From positions 1 through 32,194 of the IMG/VR virus record IMGVR_UViG_3300032092_000144: a DNA stretch of 32,194 nt; one strand, 5' to 3'. Every line of letters begins with the position of its first letter. The stretch's first letter is position 1. The DNA comes from a virus. The notes beneath the pieces are model-generated. The model was given only the letters and a program-made list of their open reading frames with translations, did no database searches and was not told the origin of the DNA. Made by a program: the position numbers and the translations under genes. Below, one piece after another: positions 194 through 30,220 of the stretch.

Positions 194-410
194 CGGCATC
201 CTCTTTGTATTTCGCGAGTTTATCCAAAGACTTCTTGCCCTCCGAGTTAAGTGTGGTCCTCAGATACTTAACCAAACGCTTCACTAACTCATCATCATTT
301 GGACCACACTGCACATCTAGGCATACTATGAAACCTCTGTAGTGCAGTCCGATACTGTGATGATCTGTGATCGCATTGAGTTTAGTCTTGTCATTGTAGT
401 CCTTTGGCAT
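180..410 (-). CDS. Small phage protein of unknown function (76 aa)
   Basis: The ATG overlaps the stop of the upstream nucleotidyltransferase gene (TAATG), and AGGAG lies 7 bases before it, so translation is probably coupled. The product is soluble and charged. It has a Lys-rich middle (VKRLVKYLRTTLNSEGKK) and an acidic tail ending in EDADADC. I recognise no family. It could be an accessory partner of the nucleotidyltransferase, but this rests only on adjacency. Confidence 0.65.
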   Translation of the reverse strand: MPKDYNDKTKLNAITDHHSIGLHYRGFIVCLDVQCGPNDDELVKRLVKYLRTTLNSEGKKSLDKLAKYKEDADADC

Positions 411-715
411 TACTGAACTCCTGTGTAGTCAGCAGCACAAAACCCGGCAGACTGGAAAGCCGCTACGGCTTCTTCACGTCCAACGTCGTAACCACGACTG
501 AGCAAGTCATCATTGATTCGCTTCCACTCAGCAAACCTATCGGGAGCCAACAATATCAAATTCAACTTACCAAAACGACAGGACTTATTGGACTCGCTGT
601 GGTCCCATAGCGTCTCTTCGTCAATCGTCCCGCCCTCAAGACAGACCACAAGGTCAATATCGGAGTCCTTATGGGGAACCCCGTAAGCGTAGCTACCAGT
701 GATGAATGCGTTCAT
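410..715 (-). CDS. Minimal nucleotidyltransferase-domain protein (101 aa)
   Basis: The N terminus carries the nucleotidyltransferase signature: GSYAYGV, then SDIDLVV, that is, a GS motif followed by an Asp-x-Asp metal pair at about residues 18-20. The protein is about as short as a stand-alone MNT domain. The third acidic position seems to fall in KLNLILL, where Asn stands in place of Asp, so activity is not certain. AGGAG lies 4-5 bases before the ATG. Known MNT proteins transfer nucleotides to small molecules or proteins and often pair with HEPN proteins. No HEPN motif is visible in the neighbouring 76-residue protein. The gene follows a block of tRNA-like elements on the same strand. Confidence 0.75.
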   Translation of the reverse strand: MNAFITGSYAYGVPHKDSDIDLVVCLEGGTIDEETLWDHSESNKSCRFGKLNLILLAPDRFAEWKRINDDLLSRGYDVGREEAVAAFQSAGFCAADYTGVQ

Positions 716-1327: not shown

Positions 1328-1807
1328 TTAGAAGTCCGCGACAGCCTCTGGAGCAGGAGTTGTCGCCTTGGGCTTCAGGCCGAACATCGCACGCAACTTG
1401 ATCTTGTCAGTTTCAGTTGCAGGCTTTGCAATCGGGCTACGGTTGGTACGAGGAGTCGAGATATTGAATCGATCAAACTCCTCGCCCTTGTCGTTCGTGT
1501 TCACACTACAGAACACAGGAACGATCTTGTTGATCAGCGAACCAGTTTCAACAGCGGTCAGCCAATCATCTGGATCAAGGACAGCAAGCTGTTCAGTGAC
1601 CACACCAGCCTCAATCGACTTCTGAGACAGACTCATGAAGATGTCAACCACAGCATTACCGTCAACGGTAATCTTGATGCCCTGTGGATCAGTACGCTCC
1701 AGTAGTTGAACACTCAGGTTCAGACACGGATTGTCATTCTTCGTGTTGCCCAGATCAGCAGACAGGATACGTGCGGTATACGCACCATTTTGATACTTAC
1801 GAGCCAT
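1328..1807 (-). CDS. SSB-like / DUF669-like single-strand DNA-binding protein
   Basis: This 159-residue protein starts MARKYQNGAYTARILSADLG and has a beta-rich N-terminal half. A low-complexity linker follows (PKATTPAPEA), then a short acidic/aromatic tail ending EAVADF, the arrangement of SSB-type proteins whose tails recruit partners. Its place directly after a RecA-like ATPase (TAATG overlap) matches the DUF669 genes that follow AAA_24/Sak4-type ATPases in many phages. The expected role is coating single-stranded DNA in replication or annealing. The family call rests on context and tail shape, not on a diagnostic motif. Confidence 0.6.
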   Translation of the reverse strand: MARKYQNGAYTARILSADLGNTKNDNPCLNLSVQLLERTDPQGIKITVDGNAVVDIFMSLSQKSIEAGVVTEQLAVLDPDDWLTAVETGSLINKIVPVFCSVNTNDKGEEFDRFNISTPRTNRSPIAKPATETDKIKLRAMFGLKPKATTPAPEAVADF

Positions 1808-2679
1808 TACTTCGATTCTCCCTTGGAAGTGTTAGAAGCCTTTGCTTGAGCCACAGCGGCTGAGAAGAAAGCAAATGCCTCTTTAGCGGACTTGCCCATC
1901 GAAATGGGTTCTGGGGGCAAGCCCCAGCGATTCTTGGCGGTTGCATTAGGCGATGGATGGAAAACAATCTCTCGAATGTCTTCACTGAGTGCTCGATTGC
2001 CCTTATCGGACTTAACCACGACAGGACGCTGACGCATCCAACCAATACACCCTACGTCACGATGCAAGACCTTGAGCAGTTCATTGTGAAGGTCAAGGTC
2101 AACACGATGGAATTCTTCACCGATCTCACCAGCAGGATTCTTATCCTTAACGAGTGTGGAGTGTCCCAGCAGGATCACCCGCATAGGTTTTCCATCGCAG
2201 CCGTTACGCTCAAGAATCTTGCGTACATCAGTGAGCCAGTCAGAAAACTCAGCAACACAGCCCTTATACCCCTGACCACCCCAAGCCAAAAACTTGGTAC
2301 GGGCAGCCTCTGTGGTCGTATTGTCTGCTTTAGCTCCACGTTCGATTTGGAGTTCAACAAGACTCAACTGAAACCCACCAAGGTTCTCGAACACAACTGT
2401 CTGACAATCCACGGGGGTATCAGGGTTAGCCAGTGCCTTAGTCACTTCCCGAAGGTCTGACCATGTGGTCGTCTCGATAGGAGCGATCTCAGATGAAACC
2501 TGACCAGCACGAACCAGATCGGCATAACCACCATCACGACCATCAGTCACGAACAGAGGCTTAGGGAACTGAGAAGCAAAGGATGTCTTCCCTGTACCTG
2601 GAGAGCTATATAGAACAAGGAGTTCCTTCTGATCCGTGTTGACTGCTTTTCGCAGTCTATCCAATACATTCAATGCCAT
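1807..2679 (-). CDS. RecA-like P-loop ATPase (AAA_24 / Sak4-type)
   Basis: The start chosen is the ATG at 2679 (MALNVLDRLRK). AGGAG lies just upstream, whereas the longer open frame to 2793 would run through a terminator and a promoter. The product is 290 residues. Walker A is SSPGTGKTS (residues 25-33), a Walker B-like strand is TVVFEN (94-99), and a sensor-like strand RVILLGHST lies at about 167-175. This is the layout of phage AAA_24/Sak4 proteins, which act with a single-strand-binding protein in recombination or replication. The nuclease, ATPase and SSB-like genes form one cassette. The gene has its own promoter (2764-2793) but a terminator lies between promoter and start. Confidence 0.75.
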   Translation of the reverse strand: MALNVLDRLRKAVNTDQKELLVLYSSPGTGKTSFASQFPKPLFVTDGRDGGYADLVRAGQVSSEIAPIETTTWSDLREVTKALANPDTPVDCQTVVFENLGGFQLSLVELQIERGAKADNTTTEAARTKFLAWGGQGYKGCVAEFSDWLTDVRKILERNGCDGKPMRVILLGHSTLVKDKNPAGEIGEEFHRVDLDLHNELLKVLHRDVGCIGWMRQRPVVVKSDKGNRALSEDIREIVFHPSPNATAKNRWGLPPEPISMGKSAKEAFAFFSAAVAQAKASNTSKGESK

Positions 2680-2763: not shown

Positions 2764-2793
2764 ATGATAACAGAACCATTCGCTGTTTGTCAA
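2764..2793 (-). promoter_or_regulatory. Sigma70-like promoter TTGACA-N18-TATCAT(TCG)
   Basis: The -35 TTGACA is at 2793-2788 and the -10 TATCAT at 2769-2764, followed by TCG. The spacer is 18 bases. The -35 overlaps the nuclease stop codon. The predicted start (about 2757) abuts a perfect hairpin, ACAGTT-GCAG-AACTGT (2741-2756), and the terminator comes next. It would drive the ATPase and SSB-like genes. Confidence 0.7.
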
Positions 2794-3845
2794 GCACTGG
2801 TCTTTTGAGGCTTTTCCAAGGGCAGGACGATTGGATTTTCCAACCTGTCTGCTAGGAGAACTTCACGACCGGCGTGAACCAGAGAACCGAGGTCGAGGGC
2901 CTTCGCCTTCTTCTTGACCACGGGTTCCAGTTTGCTTTGGTACTTATAGTACCACTCTGCTTGACAGGAAGACAGGATTTTGGACTGGCTTGTGGTCATT
3001 CCTAGATCGAGTCTTACTGTCTCGGAAGCCTCTCTCACCCGCAAACCCGCTTTGGCCGGGTCTGACTGGCCTGAGCAGAGGCCGTGGTAATCGCACAGCC
3101 CTCCACCAAACCGATTGCAGACATGCTGATTACGGTGGCCGTGCAGATAGATTGGATCACCACCTTTCAGTGAGAGTTGTTCTGCCAAAGTAGCCAGCCT
3201 GTGCTGTTGGTAGATAAAATCCACCAACTGTTCCGGACTTCGATCATAAGCTCTCCTTGAGAAGCAATCAGGACGATCCTCGTACCATGAAGCTAGGCGT
3301 CTCCCGTACAGCACTGGAGACTCTTTCCCATCTTCAGGTATACTCGTTGGAACAGGCCAGCCGCAGTAGTTACCACGACTGACTTCTTCCTTTGCCGCAA
3401 TTGTGAGTTTCTTAGGCTCAATGCCTGGCTTAATGATGACATCCCATTCCAACTGGGCTTCTTCATAGCCGGAAGCAAACAATGCGAACTTGTATTGTGT
3501 CAGTTGGTTGTTGGTATATAGTTCTTGCCAGTAAACGTCGCTAGCCCAAGAAGCCGTCTTCAGATCAGTCGCGTAGAGACGACCATCACGTTCTACGATA
3601 CTGTCAATGATCCCACCGACATACCGTGGACTCTGTGGTCTCCACTCTTCAGGCAAGTCATCTGGAACAGGCAGTTCGATTGAGAAGGGTACTTCAATAC
3701 CCCTGACCACAAGGTCAGCATCATGTTTCTCATAACGAAGGAAGTAGCCGTAGAGCATCGCTCGTGCGGTCTCGATGGTCCATTCGTCAGCACCCTGCTG
3801 TCGCTGCTCATCAAGGTAGTTGTTTACTTTTGCTAGTGGAGTCAT
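2790..3845 (-). CDS. PD-(D/E)XK (RecB/Cas4-like) nuclease, apparently circularly permuted
   Basis: This 351-residue protein has the nuclease core GGIIDSI (Asp81) and TDLKTAS (Asp94, Lys96), followed by a Cys cluster (C243, C251, C257) of the kind that holds an Fe-S cluster in Cas4/AddB relatives. In the usual family order the entry motif (S-x-S, Cys, WYYKY, then GSLVH) comes first. Here it comes last: SQSKILSSCQAEWYYKY at about 286-302 and GSLVH at 320-324. The N terminus begins with the helix that normally follows that motif (TARAMLYGYFLRYE). The expected role is exonuclease or end-processing work with the ATPase and SSB-like protein downstream. The start follows AGAGAAGA. The upstream neighbour is a small gene 38 bases away. 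Confidence 0.75.
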   Translation of the reverse strand: MTPLAKVNNYLDEQRQQGADEWTIETARAMLYGYFLRYEKHDADLVVRGIEVPFSIELPVPDDLPEEWRPQSPRYVGGIIDSIVERDGRLYATDLKTASWASDVYWQELYTNNQLTQYKFALFASGYEEAQLEWDVIIKPGIEPKKLTIAAKEEVSRGNYCGWPVPTSIPEDGKESPVLYGRRLASWYEDRPDCFSRRAYDRSPEQLVDFIYQQHRLATLAEQLSLKGGDPIYLHGHRNQHVCNRFGGGLCDYHGLCSGQSDPAKAGLRVREASETVRLDLGMTTSQSKILSSCQAEWYYKYQSKLEPVVKKKAKALDLGSLVHAGREVLLADRLENPIVLPLEKPQKTSA

Positions 3846-9149: not shown

Positions 9150-9416
9150 ATGCACGAGAACATCCACCCAACCAGTATCAGTACCACACCACAACCCGTC
9201 AATCGGGATTGGGTAGGTATCCTGTGTGTCTGTTGCTGTTTCATGCTTCTGACCATGTTCGCTGCTATTGCATTTGCAGCAGTTGAACTTTATCATGCGG
9301 TGACAGCGAACACCCACTCGAACAGACAACTACAGATCGCAGTGAATCAACTCTGCCTGACTAATGAGAAGGTGATTGCCCAGCAGGAAGGTCGAGAGCC
9401 ACGGGTACTGCCTTAG
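9150..9416 (+). CDS. Lone plus-strand membrane protein (88 aa)
   Basis: AAGGAG lies 7 bases before ATG 9150 (MHENIHPTSISTTPQ). One strong membrane segment follows, GILCVCCCFMLLTMFAAIAF (about residues 25-44). The C-terminal part is soluble. It is the only confident plus-strand gene within the 26-kb minus-strand arm. It begins 19 bases from the divergent gene at 9130 and its 3' end overlaps the convergent gene at 9361 by 56 bases. The good ribosome site and the membrane segment argue for a real gene. A minus-strand frame here has neither. Confidence 0.6.
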   Translation: MHENIHPTSISTTPQPVNRDWVGILCVCCCFMLLTMFAAIAFAAVELYHAVTANTHSNRQLQIAVNQLCLTNEKVIAQQEGREPRVLP

Positions 9417-10662
9417 CCAGCGGACAGTCTTCACAAACTCGCACAGAATGATACAGGTCTGGGTGCTTCTTGAGAAGACCCTTACGCTGTAGTTCTGTAG
9501 CAACGCAGGACTTACCTGTGGTCTCTGTGCAGGCCATCGTGTAGACCACACCTGTGCCTCCACACCCGCAGGTCTTCTTTTGAGGCTCTCCTGCACGGTA
9601 AGTGCAAGGATAGTCCTCAAACCAATCAACCCGAGTTTCCTGAACCGCAGGGACAGTTGTTACTGTCTTCTGCGGTTTTTGTTTTGTTTCAACTACAGGA
9701 CCATCGCCTACATACCAGACTGACTTACCGGTGATCTCCTGTATCCGCATAGCTTGCTGCTTATCACTTTCCAGCATTGCAACAGGCCCGGTTGCATACT
9801 TCGATACGGCATTGGCTTTGTGCTCGATAACAGACTCACCTGTACGCTCCCCGTCAGGGTGCATTATCAGTTCTGCCTGAACACCATGTCTAGCCAACCA
9901 TGCTTCAGTCTGTGGTCGCCACATCTCCCTGCGACCGGTAACAATCCTGATCTTGCTTCTCAACGGTAGGCACTTCGGCTTAGCGATATCCAACCATTTG
10001 GCGTAGTGCTCATCATCCGAGATGTAGTTTGGACAGTCCTCACAAATCACCCCATCCATGTCCCATAGCATCTGACTGGAGTAGACACTGTTAGCAATGT
10101 TCCATTCCATCACGTGTGGTCTGGGCAGTTCCTTGACAAAGTAGTCTACAGATTCTTTTGACTGCCTATCATAGTACACCACGGCATACTTCGGAGTCAG
10201 TTCACTGCTCTCAACTACCTTCTTGATTCTTCCCAGGCTTCGACCTGAACACGAAGTATCATCGATGACCACAGGAGACTGAAACTGTTTTGCCTTCAGT
10301 CGCCAGCCATGCCCGGCATCAACAATGTCTCCCTCAGACTCTCGAAGAACAAAGAGCGGAAGGTGAAGGAGCGTAGCTACGATTGTTGCAGGAGTCAGCC
10401 CAGAACGGGCTACACCTATAATGCAGTCTACCTTTCCGGAAAGCATAGAAGCAAGTTGTGCAGAATCCCGGCTAAGATCAGTCAGGGACACCCACCGCTG
10501 AGCGATAGGTTTTTCCTGATCTGCCACAGCACCGCCTCGCTTGAGCAAGCAACGCTTAACGCCACCATAGGTCATATTCAGACCACAGGCGTTACACAGT
10601 CCGGGAGTGTTGTCTGGCTGTCCCGGTGCAAGCCACTTATCCCAACCACAGGCGTGTTTCAT
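9361..10662 (-). CDS. Phosphoribosyltransferase-HAD fusion with Cys-rich ends (433 aa)
   Basis: A type I phosphoribosyltransferase domain occupies roughly residues 50-185. Its PRPP loop is VVIDDTSCSGR (131-141), with IIGVARSGLTP upstream. A HAD phosphatase-like domain follows: LWDMDGVI (DxDG at 201-204), IVTGRR (241-245) and LESD (297-300). The N terminus has a Cys cluster (CGWDKW...CNACG), and the C terminus another (CGCGGTG, then CEDCP), both zinc-finger-like. The family logic suggests use of PRPP or an orotate-PRTase-like ribosyl transfer with phosphate removal, as in nucleotide or nucleoside-like metabolite chemistry. The substrate is unknown. Its start overlaps the upstream stop (ATGA). 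Confidence 0.8.
   Translation of the reverse strand: MKHACGWDKWLAPGQPDNTPGLCNACGLNMTYGGVKRCLLKRGGAVADQEKPIAQRWVSLTDLSRDSAQLASMLSGKVDCIIGVARSGLTPATIVATLLHLPLFVLRESEGDIVDAGHGWRLKAKQFQSPVVIDDTSCSGRSLGRIKKVVESSELTPKYAVVYYDRQSKESVDYFVKELPRPHVMEWNIANSVYSSQMLWDMDGVICEDCPNYISDDEHYAKWLDIAKPKCLPLRSKIRIVTGRREMWRPQTEAWLARHGVQAELIMHPDGERTGESVIEHKANAVSKYATGPVAMLESDKQQAMRIQEITGKSVWYVGDGPVVETKQKPQKTVTTVPAVQETRVDWFEDYPCTYRAGEPQKKTCGCGGTGVVYTMACTETTGKSCVATELQRKGLLKKHPDLYHSVRVCEDCPLAKAVPVALDLPAGQSPSH
9448..9476 (-). promoter_or_regulatory. Weak candidate promoter TTCTCA-N17-TATCAT
   Basis: The -10 TATCATTC matches the other phage promoters, but the -35 TTCTCA keeps only four of six consensus bases. It lies in the 3' end of the fusion gene. 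It would transcribe antisense across the plus-strand membrane gene before reaching the gene at 9130. Confidence 0.25.
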
Positions 10663-23798: not shown

Positions 23799-25070
23799 CT
23801 AAGCTCCGTCAACCTTGGTGACATAGATCGAATCGACTGCCGACAGACCACCGAAGTAGCTTGCCTTGATCGAGAAGATCAGGTCTTGGTTGAATGCGTC
23901 TTCGCTATCCCGTCCCTGAACAGCGGTTCGCAGCGGCCAAATCTCAGTCCAAACGAACTGCTTGTTAAAGTCGCCGATGTAGTAGTCGTCGCCGTTGACT
24001 TCATCAACGTACGGACTTGAGACCACACGGGAGACAAACCCTGCGACCGGCTGATTGTACTGGAACTGCACACCGCCCGAGGAACTCGGCTCGTACCCAA
24101 CCTGGGTTGGATAGACGATGGTGTTAGCCGCTGACCGCTTGCCTTCTGGCACCAGCAGAGTCAGATTGGTGTTAATACCACCAATCGGACGAGCCGTACC
24201 ATCGATACGATCATCGGTGACCTTCGTTGCCCGGTACAGACGAACCAGATCAAGGTCGGTCCAGTCAACCAGAGGAGATGCCGAACTAAACCCGGTAACC
24301 CCACCGTTGCCGATGTAGTTCATGTTGCTGCCGTTGGTGTTGTACAGGACTTCGCCTGTACCGCTCGGACGGTAGACATAAACACTCGAACCGGAGTCTG
24401 CATCGATCAGCAGACGAATCTTACGCCGTTCCTGCTCATTTTTCAGAGCAGTACCGAGCATCGCTGCCCGACGATAGCATTCGCCAGTCTGATCGAAGAT
24501 CATCAGTTCTTCGGTCAGCCGCAGAATACGACCACGCTTTTCTTCCTTGGTCGTAACGTACTTCTCGCTGAAGTCCGTTTCTGGATAGGGGTGACCTTCC
24601 AGAACTTCATCATCGCTTGCAGCAATGTGAGTCAGACCTGCCAGTCGCTGATTACGCAGCTTCTGATTAGGCATGATGGTCATCAGCGTATCTGCAACGC
24701 TAGGCACTGCCTCATAAGCATCGATCATCTTCGAAGAGATGAGAGTCGATGTCAGAGTTGCAAATGCCTGCGAACGAACAGCCAAGTTCGATTCGGTGAA
24801 CACGCGAGCATTGACCTGGTGAGGCTCAAGCCCTTCGTGGTTCACGAACTTGACTTCTTCAGCGATTCGCTTCCACGAGCCTTCTTCATCCATTGGGTCA
24901 ATGGCACCCAGCCACAGACCGAGTTGCTTAAAGCTAGGCACAGCGTGCTCAGCCTTCAGCTTACCAGATTTAAGACCTTCGGTCAGAGTGATGAAGACGT
25001 TCTTATAGCCTTCAGCGACCGGACGGTCCTTAGTGAGTCCTGTGAAGAACTCTTGATTAAGACGTACCAC
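23799..25070 (-). CDS. Major capsid protein, HK97-fold type (423 aa)
   Basis: The start is GTG 25070 with AGGAG 6 bases upstream. The length is usual for HK97-type capsid proteins. It lies after protease/scaffold and a small head gene and is followed by a strong terminator. Readable parts include an N-arm-like helical start (NVFITLTEGLKSGK), a long backbone-helix-like segment (YRRAAMLGTALKNEQERRK), DADSGSSVYVYRPSGTG and, near the end, QFVWTEIWPLRTAVQGRDSED. No separate delta domain is obvious. The call rests mainly on gene order, size and expression signals. Confidence 0.75.
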   Translation of the reverse strand: MVRLNQEFFTGLTKDRPVAEGYKNVFITLTEGLKSGKLKAEHAVPSFKQLGLWLGAIDPMDEEGSWKRIAEEVKFVNHEGLEPHQVNARVFTESNLAVRSQAFATLTSTLISSKMIDAYEAVPSVADTLMTIMPNQKLRNQRLAGLTHIAASDDEVLEGHPYPETDFSEKYVTTKEEKRGRILRLTEELMIFDQTGECYRRAAMLGTALKNEQERRKIRLLIDADSGSSVYVYRPSGTGEVLYNTNGSNMNYIGNGGVTGFSSASPLVDWTDLDLVRLYRATKVTDDRIDGTARPIGGINTNLTLLVPEGKRSAANTIVYPTQVGYEPSSSGGVQFQYNQPVAGFVSRVVSSPYVDEVNGDDYYIGDFNKQFVWTEIWPLRTAVQGRDSEDAFNQDLIFSIKASYFGGLSAVDSIYVTKVDGA

Positions 25071-29116: not shown

Positions 29117-29591
29117 TGTGGCTTATAGCCTCAGCAATGTCAATAGCTTCAATGGTCATCTAGGACAGTACAGCACTGCTCAGCATTCATGCCTAGTCAG
29201 CGACCTACTTGGAGGTTCCTACTGTGGTCTAATGCACGACGGTCACGAGATGATCTGCGGTGACACCAGCACACCAGTCAAGAATGCTCTTAACCTGTTA
29301 GGCAACAATGTCTGGAAAGACTTCGAGCATGGTATTGCTAAGCGATTCTGTCATTACTGGGGTGTAACATTTCCGTTCCCAGAAGAAGTGCATAAAGCAG
29401 ACCACATGGCTAGGCGAATCGAGGTTGCCTCGCTGGCTACTAATGAGATGAAGACTGCATTGCGTAAGTTGGGGCTTGAGCCATTGTATAACACCGAGTT
29501 TGCTATTCAGGAAGTTTGGACACCAGACCGTTCATTTCGTGAATTTATGGATCGATTCGACAAATACGGCCCAACCGGGAGAGTTCAATGA
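29103..29591 (+). CDS. HD-domain phosphohydrolase, probable nucleotidase (162 aa)
   Basis: The ATG 29103 (MTIADVAYSLSNVNSFNGHL) is chosen because the HD domain starts there. The longer frame to 29004 runs through the previous gene. The metal-binding pattern is H in AQHSCLV (residue 28) and HD in GLMHDGHE (45-46). GDTSTPVK follows, as in YfbR-like 5'-nucleotidases. It would cut nucleotides and adjust pools for phage DNA synthesis. Next comes a dNMP kinase gene, coupled by ATGA. It is short for the family but complete at both ends. Confidence 0.75.
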   Translation: MTIADVAYSLSNVNSFNGHLGQYSTAQHSCLVSDLLGGSYCGLMHDGHEMICGDTSTPVKNALNLLGNNVWKDFEHGIAKRFCHYWGVTFPFPEEVHKADHMARRIEVASLATNEMKTALRKLGLEPLYNTEFAIQEVWTPDRSFREFMDRFDKYGPTGRVQ

Positions 29592-30220
29592 TTGATCTAG
29601 TAGCCATTCATGGCAAATTAGGAACAGGCAAGGACACCATGGCCTCGTTCCTTACTGACCACACACCGTACAGTTTTGCTGATCCACTACGTAAGGGTCT
29701 GTTGGCACTCGATCCTTGGATTCCTACAGACGATGGTAGACGTAGGCTCTCAGATGTGGTCAGTACGGAAGGCTGGGATGAAGCCAAGAAAATTCCAGAA
29801 GTCCGACGACTGATGCAGGCCTATGGAACCGAGGCGGGCCGAGACATCCACGGACAGGACTGCTGGGTTAAACTTGCCGGTGAATTCATTGACAAGCATG
29901 ACCGGGTAGTTATCCGTGATGTACGATTCCCGAACGAAGTAGATGCCATTTACGGGTTTGAGTTCACCAAACCGAAGTTGAAGAATCGTACTGTCCTTGT
30001 TAAGATGTTAGGTGAGTCTCGTCGTGAGCACGAGCAGTCTGCTACACAGCATGCAAGCGAACAAGGACTTGAGGATTGGCTGTTCGATGTGCTGGTCTTT
30101 AACGACGGCACTTTAGACGACCTTAGATGGGCTGCTAACTACATCGTCAGTAATCCACCACCCAAGAAGCCCATTAAACTCATCTGCCACTCACGAACCG
30201 TAACTGGAGTCACTGAATGA
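29588..30220 (+). CDS. Deoxynucleoside monophosphate kinase (210 aa)
   Basis: A P-loop GKLGTGKDT (9-17) at the start and RLMQAYGTEAGRDIHGQDCW (about residues 77-96) match the phage dNMP kinase family. VVIRDVRFPNEVDAI is the matching lid/core segment. It would convert dNMPs to dNDPs. It follows a nucleotidase, so the two form a nucleotide-pool pair. GGGAG lies before an ATG that overlaps the upstream stop. Confidence 0.85.
   Translation: MIDLVAIHGKLGTGKDTMASFLTDHTPYSFADPLRKGLLALDPWIPTDDGRRRLSDVVSTEGWDEAKKIPEVRRLMQAYGTEAGRDIHGQDCWVKLAGEFIDKHDRVVIRDVRFPNEVDAIYGFEFTKPKLKNRTVLVKMLGESRREHEQSATQHASEQGLEDWLFDVLVFNDGTLDDLRWAANYIVSNPPPKKPIKLICHSRTVTGVTE

Follow-up and report, generated by a model that had tools for sequence, protein, structure and literature searches.

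The gene at positions 2790-3845 on the minus strand of the IMG/VR virus record IMGVR_UViG_3300032092_000144 (positions 1 to 32,194 of the record, hereafter the window) very probably codes for a phage exonuclease of the Cas4/AddB type, within the PD-(D/E)XK nucleases, that has undergone a natural circular permutation. The open reading frame had been delineated in an earlier sequence-only reading, and its ATG start and length of 351 amino acids were confirmed. Ordinary nucleases of the RecB/Cas4 type carry the entry block (TxS...C...GSxxH) first in the chain. In the protein from the window, two helices are followed by three long strands that bear G78xxD81 and D94-L-K96, then by Q114xxxY118 and by a helical C-terminal part that holds C243, C251 and C257. 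The entry motif (T284-x-S286, C294, WYYKY and G320-SLV-H324) forms the last block, and the chain stops soon past the histidine helix. The motif, previously placed at residues 286-324, was indeed found C-terminal to the core, within a segment spanning residues 283-332, and it is present once, after all catalytic positions and the three C-terminal cysteine positions.

Profile matches and rotation

Generic nuclease profiles match the native protein from the window in two stretches. For Pfam PDDEXK_1 (PF12705) the best stretch places protein residues 12-127 on profile positions 73-174, and for PHROG 1218 it places residues 14-150 on positions 87-219; positions 2-40 of the DUF3799 profile match residues 285-326. 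The curated PDDEXK_1 cut-off of 22 bits is exceeded by both the native (45.7 bits) and the rotated protein (53.8 bits), and the catalytic set is complete (H324, D81, D94/K96 and Q114/Y118). The linear order of that family (entry, core, C-terminal cysteines) is absent, as the protein runs from core to cysteines to entry, and it was therefore classed as a permuted variant and not as an ordinary PDDEXK_1 member. Rotation at around residue 275, suggested as a check by the sequence-only reading, merged the split matches, so that unpermuted phage nucleases were matched without a break. In the rotated proteins of the window, of the IMG/VR locus L007 and of phage Tunturi_2 (see below) both profiles matched in one stretch each, and the scores went up: for PDDEXK_1 from 60.4 to 65.1 bits in L007 and from 49.3 to 59.7 in Tunturi_2, next to the values given above for the window, and for PHROG 1218 from 55.0 to 60.4 (window), 90.0 to 92.0 (L007) and 70.8 to 74.7 (Tunturi_2).

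A hidden Markov model (HMM) built for the purpose from seven normal-order phage exonucleases recovered the core (E 2.7e-9, profile 94-189) and the entry segment (E 6.7e-9, profile 9-51) of the window protein in swapped order, a two-piece match that is far beyond chance. With the same HMM, the core domain came first and the entry domain (profile ~8 to 57) second in 24/24 permuted proteins, and rotation fused the two domains into one in 22 of these. Likewise, PHROG 1218 matched all six family contigs on which it was run with the core (within profile 86-332) followed in the same frame by the entry (within profile 4-74). Profile-profile comparison aligned permuted positions 6-284 with normal positions 64-328 and permuted positions 287-342 with normal positions 6-59, and gave a single alignment (6-317) once the permuted set was rotated. 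The pieces thus cover the normal-order profile with almost no overlap or loss, and the chain begins, as had been proposed, with what should follow the entry helix. When 55 permuted loci, the entire window among them, were scanned in frames as short as 20 residues, no second entry segment was revealed; each locus held exactly one significant copy. The earlier statements that core, Cys residues of the iron-sulphur (Fe-S) type and entry motif each occur once, and that neither simple duplication nor truncation is involved, are borne out by this single entry copy and by the tiling of the profile. The native order holds as a true circular permutation; a duplication or its remnant, a truncation and an extra, separate domain were rejected.

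Normal-order relatives and position of the cut

A search with the rotated window protein reached normal-order exonucleases of Gordonia, Microbacterium, Arthrobacter, Corynebacterium and Pseudomonas phages. Seven of the regions were opened, and in each the exonuclease gene lies directly or closely upstream of an annotated gene for a Sak4-like, RecA-like or other ATP/nucleotide-binding protein. The 'Cas4-family' or 'RecB-like' phage exonucleases of PHROG 1218 (e.g. gp49 of Gordonia phage Hexbug, gp103 of Arthrobacter phage Mimi and gp73 of Corynebacterium phage P1201) resemble the window enzyme in their motifs, in the four cysteines and in preceding a Sak4/RecA-like gene directly or at a short distance, but they have the ordinary order with the entry first, and their identity to the window protein is low. 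The closest unpermuted relatives found were those of IMG/VR loci such as L112, L128 and L117, which lie beside the same Sak4 subfamily in the equal operon position; relatives of this type match over the core with 100% probability in profile-profile comparison. They start with LTNSR...C...GxxxH and end with VHPEL, whereas the permuted chain runs on from VHPEL into LTNSR, so that the C terminus of the normal-order homologues marks the junction to the entry motif. Written out, the closest normal-order layout reads M..LTNSRxK..C...GxxxHxxLEAWW, a short loop and LxxAL...GY...VHPEL-end, and the permuted layout reads MxxAL...GY...VHPEL, around 5-15 residues, LTNSR...C...GxxxHxxxEAWW and a short tail. 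The old ends are connected by a short linker, and ~26-38 residues separate the fourth core cysteine position from the TxS motif in permuted members. According to AlphaFold2 models of the window protein and of the normal-order L112 protein, the histidine helix is followed by a five-residue loop (residues 52-56 in L112), and it is there that the chain is cut. Normal-order homologues with the N terminus of the window protein had been named beforehand as evidence that would speak against a permutation; normal-order homologues do exist, but they begin with the entry motif. The RecE/YqaJ and PHROG 1990 exonucleases found beside other Sak4 genes were also checked and belong to other families.

Structure models

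Structure prediction, the other check suggested by the sequence-only reading, gave a confident model of the window protein (predicted template-modelling score, pTM, 0.83), with a per-residue confidence (pLDDT) of mostly 76-95 for the entry helices. These stand at the C end with the right lengths and in the right order: elements H6-14, H16-24, E27-29 and H34-51 of L112 are equal in length to H285-293, H295-303, E306-308 and H315-332 of the window protein. In structure comparisons, the window model matched AdnA over residues 840-1038 (Z 9.8) and ACE1 over residues 77-265 (Z 8.7), and the L112 model matched them over 793-1039 (Z 16.0) and 5-267 (Z 14.9), respectively; the 47-72 residues at the start of AdnA and ACE1 that the window model leaves unmatched are where the entry segment sits in the ordinary order. 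A Foldseek search of the window model against the PDB returned nothing with E < 0.001, as expected if a sequential alignment breaks at the permutation, and a sequence search against the PDB gave weak matches only. UniProt entry A0A6J5NSY1, from an uncultured Caudovirales phage, aligned to the window model in the same order (360 columns, TM-score 0.84, 37% identity); its deposited name, 'PD-(D/E)XK nuclease superfamily', is silent on permutation.

Distribution of the permuted order

Relatives were recovered by tblastn on phages and by alignment-based scans. The former identified the same permuted order in the isolated Tunturiibacter phages Tunturi_1 and Tunturi_2, whose proteins are ~24% identical to the window protein over residues 29-338 and are encoded just upstream of annotated genes for Sak4 and a single-strand DNA-binding protein (SSB). 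The latter yielded 28 IMG/VR loci, and every reading frame extracted from them runs core first, entry last. With the window protein as a single-sequence pattern, scans of viral and genome contigs recovered no relatives, nor did an alignment scan of genome contigs, and tblastn of a rotated sequence gave no match in plasmids. To avoid choosing by exonuclease, IMG/VR was also scanned with a Sak4 alignment. An exonuclease of the same family was present upstream of Sak4 in 67 of the 78 new loci, 38 times permuted and 29 times normal, which are not population frequencies since the Sak4 query was drawn from permuted loci and some loci are near-copies. Considering that uninterrupted reading frames of this order occur on dozens of contigs of differing sample origin, the permuted exonuclease is a whole family common to many phages and not a one-off.

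Conserved residues and proposed origin

Wherever the alignment column is filled, neither permuted nor normal rows show any change in the four cysteines or in the catalytic H, D, K, Q and Y, except that D and E replace each other at the second catalytic acid. The entry-segment Cys and GxxxH are invariant in 52/52 permuted members with the column filled. In the window protein the cysteines follow the Cas4/AddB-type pattern, with C294 in the entry segment and the other three in the C-terminal part, which suggests a putative Fe-S cluster. The nuclease domains of AddB, AdnA and Dna2, Cas4 and the Argonaute-associated ACE1 share the RecB-type fold with the window enzyme, and in AddB, Dna2 and Cas4 four cysteines hold an Fe-S cluster; they differ from it in having the ordinary order and in serving helicase-nucleases, CRISPR adaptation or Argonaute systems instead of a Sak4 operon.

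In the proposed rearrangement, the ordinary N-terminal entry segment (a strand, two helices, the first cluster cysteine and the catalytic-histidine helix) would have been relocated to the C terminus. A short linker would have joined the two ordinary ends, and the chain would have been reopened in the loop after the histidine helix. The N and C extensions of Dna2 and AddB are 'stapled' by the Fe-S cluster (PMC4716839). Because the cluster staples these ends in ordinary enzymes, joining them would be the join least likely to disturb the fold, and fold, active site and cluster should stay intact. A likely route would start from a tandem duplication with in-frame fusion, the outer parts being lost afterwards, although no remnant of a duplication was seen.

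When 88 rotated and ordinary proteins were placed on one tree, the order label could be explained by 2 changes, against 27.7 in shuffles. After thinning to 75 rows, holding the permuted rows together as one clade gave a slightly better tree than leaving it free (approximately unbiased test, p-AU 0.71), so that a single clade of all permuted members is not rejected. The order label follows the Sak4 tree as well (3 changes, versus 20.6 when shuffled), which implies that the operon seems to travel as a unit. A divergent permuted exonuclease at locus L123 (2832-3944, plus strand) stands beside the normal-order clade in the unconstrained tree and is a candidate for an early branching or a second permutation event.

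Alternative explanations

Some observations weigh against the reading as a permuted, self-contained enzyme. Model confidence is lower in the linker and in parts of the cysteine region (pLDDT 58-63 at 231-250 and 59 at 271-280), and that the relocated segment packs within its own chain is something that we infer. Moreover, no member diverges more than the window protein, which sits on a long branch, so its placement in the clade is unsure, as is that of the equally long-branched L123. One could thus argue that the permutation arose more than once, with either protein representing an independent event, the more so as unconstrained quick trees need 2 changes. Given the higher likelihood obtained when all permuted rows are held together and the fact that the members are cut in the same loop, we regard this as improbable. 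Slightly more improbable still is a permuted chain whose entry segment is donated to the active site of an adjacent subunit instead of its own, in a domain-swapped dimer or ring. Lambda exonuclease forms an oligomeric ring. Such rings among related exonucleases speak for the idea and the ~26-38 residue stretch before TxS would permit a swap, but the monomer is modelled confidently as a single unit, and the old ends are expected together since the four cysteines from both share one cluster (PMC4716839).

The remaining explanations deny the permutation as such. The C-terminal segment could be an unrelated or degenerate add-on (the remnant of a second copy or a separate domain), leaving the enzyme without an entry or dead. 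Apart from the unusual position nothing was found in favour of this, and the conservation of the entry residues contradicts it, as do the single entry segment per locus and the tiling of the normal-order profile; we consider it highly implausible. An artefact of gene calling, frameshift or assembly might be suspected in a linear metagenomic contig such as the window, but is refuted by the isolate genomes of Tunturi_1 and Tunturi_2 and by the dozens of stop-free contigs from different samples, so that its probability is close to nil.

Gene neighbourhood and predicted function

Sak4 lies directly downstream of the permuted exonuclease in 20/20 loci with enough downstream sequence. In the window, too, the exonuclease gene adjoins genes for Sak4 and a probable SSB (Table 1); the match of the SSB candidate is weak, and its position equals that of the SSB annotated in Tunturi_1 and Tunturi_2. 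End resection for annealing has been proposed where other phages pair an exonuclease with Sak4 (PMC3483164), and synteny of Sak4 and SSB has been described (PMC8093625). Most likely the window enzyme is a resection exonuclease acting on double-stranded DNA ends, predicted to be probably active and to make single-stranded DNA (ssDNA) for Sak4 and SSB; its activity and polarity we infer.

Table 1. Position of the exonuclease gene, its parts and the adjoining genes in the window
Feature	Coordinates	Strand	Length	Evidence or remarks
Very probable circularly permuted PD-(D/E)XK (Cas4/AddB-type) exonuclease	2790..3845	-	351 aa	Split profile matches, healed by rotation
Catalytic core and old C-terminal half, residues 1-260	3066..3845	-		D81, D94, K96, Q114, Y118, cysteines 243, 251, 257; alignment, column counts
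Old C-terminal tail and new linker (old C end to old N end), residues 261-282	3000..3065	-		Normal-order relatives end around here (VHPEL) or start just after (LTNSR)
Relocated entry segment, residues 283-332	2850..2999	-		TxS, C294, helices 285-293, 295-303, 315-332, H324
Sak4-like (AAA_24) ssDNA-annealing ATPase	1807..2679	-		Pfam 8e-19, PHROG 124 1.4e-23; conserved downstream partner
Probable single-strand DNA-binding protein	1328..1807	-		Weak: DUF669 and PHROG 378, E 0.026 and 0.028

At three loci (L004, L010 and L007) the permuted exonuclease gene and Sak4 share tens of codons in different frames, the 3' tail of the former running over the start of the latter, so that part of the new C-terminal tail is overprinted. 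A conserved gene for a 155-amino-acid product with an EVKxIRRD motif lies upstream of the permuted exonuclease in L004 (1061-1528) and L005 (3105-3575); this product could be another PD-(D/E)XK-like protein.

Elsewhere in the window, a 433-amino-acid protein (9361-10662, minus strand) with a Cys-rich N terminus appears to be a fusion of a phosphoribosyltransferase domain (Pfam 2.1e-8) and a subsequent stretch that resembles haloacid dehalogenase (HAD)-type phosphatases (WDMDGVICED). Other genes encode a 101-amino-acid minimal nucleotidyltransferase-like protein (410-715, minus strand; NTP_transf_2, 5.2e-7), a deoxynucleotide monophosphate kinase (29588-30220, plus strand; Pfam DNMK, 6.5e-16) and a protein that matches the C-terminal part of a head maturation protease family (23799-25070, minus strand; PHROG 133, 6.2e-8) and is possibly the capsid protein.

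Implications

Natural circular permutation of a whole catalytic fold is uncommon. In the open-access literature, with subscription journals largely outside the scope, we found no description of a permuted phage nuclease of the RecB/Cas4 type; the circular-permutation papers nearest to the subject deal with SPOUT and DNA methyltransferases, type I S subunits and the CRISPR HD domain. A practical consequence is that profile-based annotation splits the permuted proteins, and the match of the window protein resembles that of a fragment in Pfam and PHROGs. The permutation may be functional and not neutral, if covalent joining of the old ends forms a bridge that stays permanently closed over the DNA channel, or frees the new ends for contact with Sak4. 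We hold this to be rather unlikely, but if true, processivity, polarity or partner loading would differ from those of the ordinary-order enzymes of the same operons. Permuted and unpermuted relatives are both numerous in the same operon position, the cut is confined to one short loop and all active-site residues are kept; the family offers a ready natural experiment on the purpose of the end-stapling Fe-S cluster in Cas4, AddB and Dna2 nucleases.
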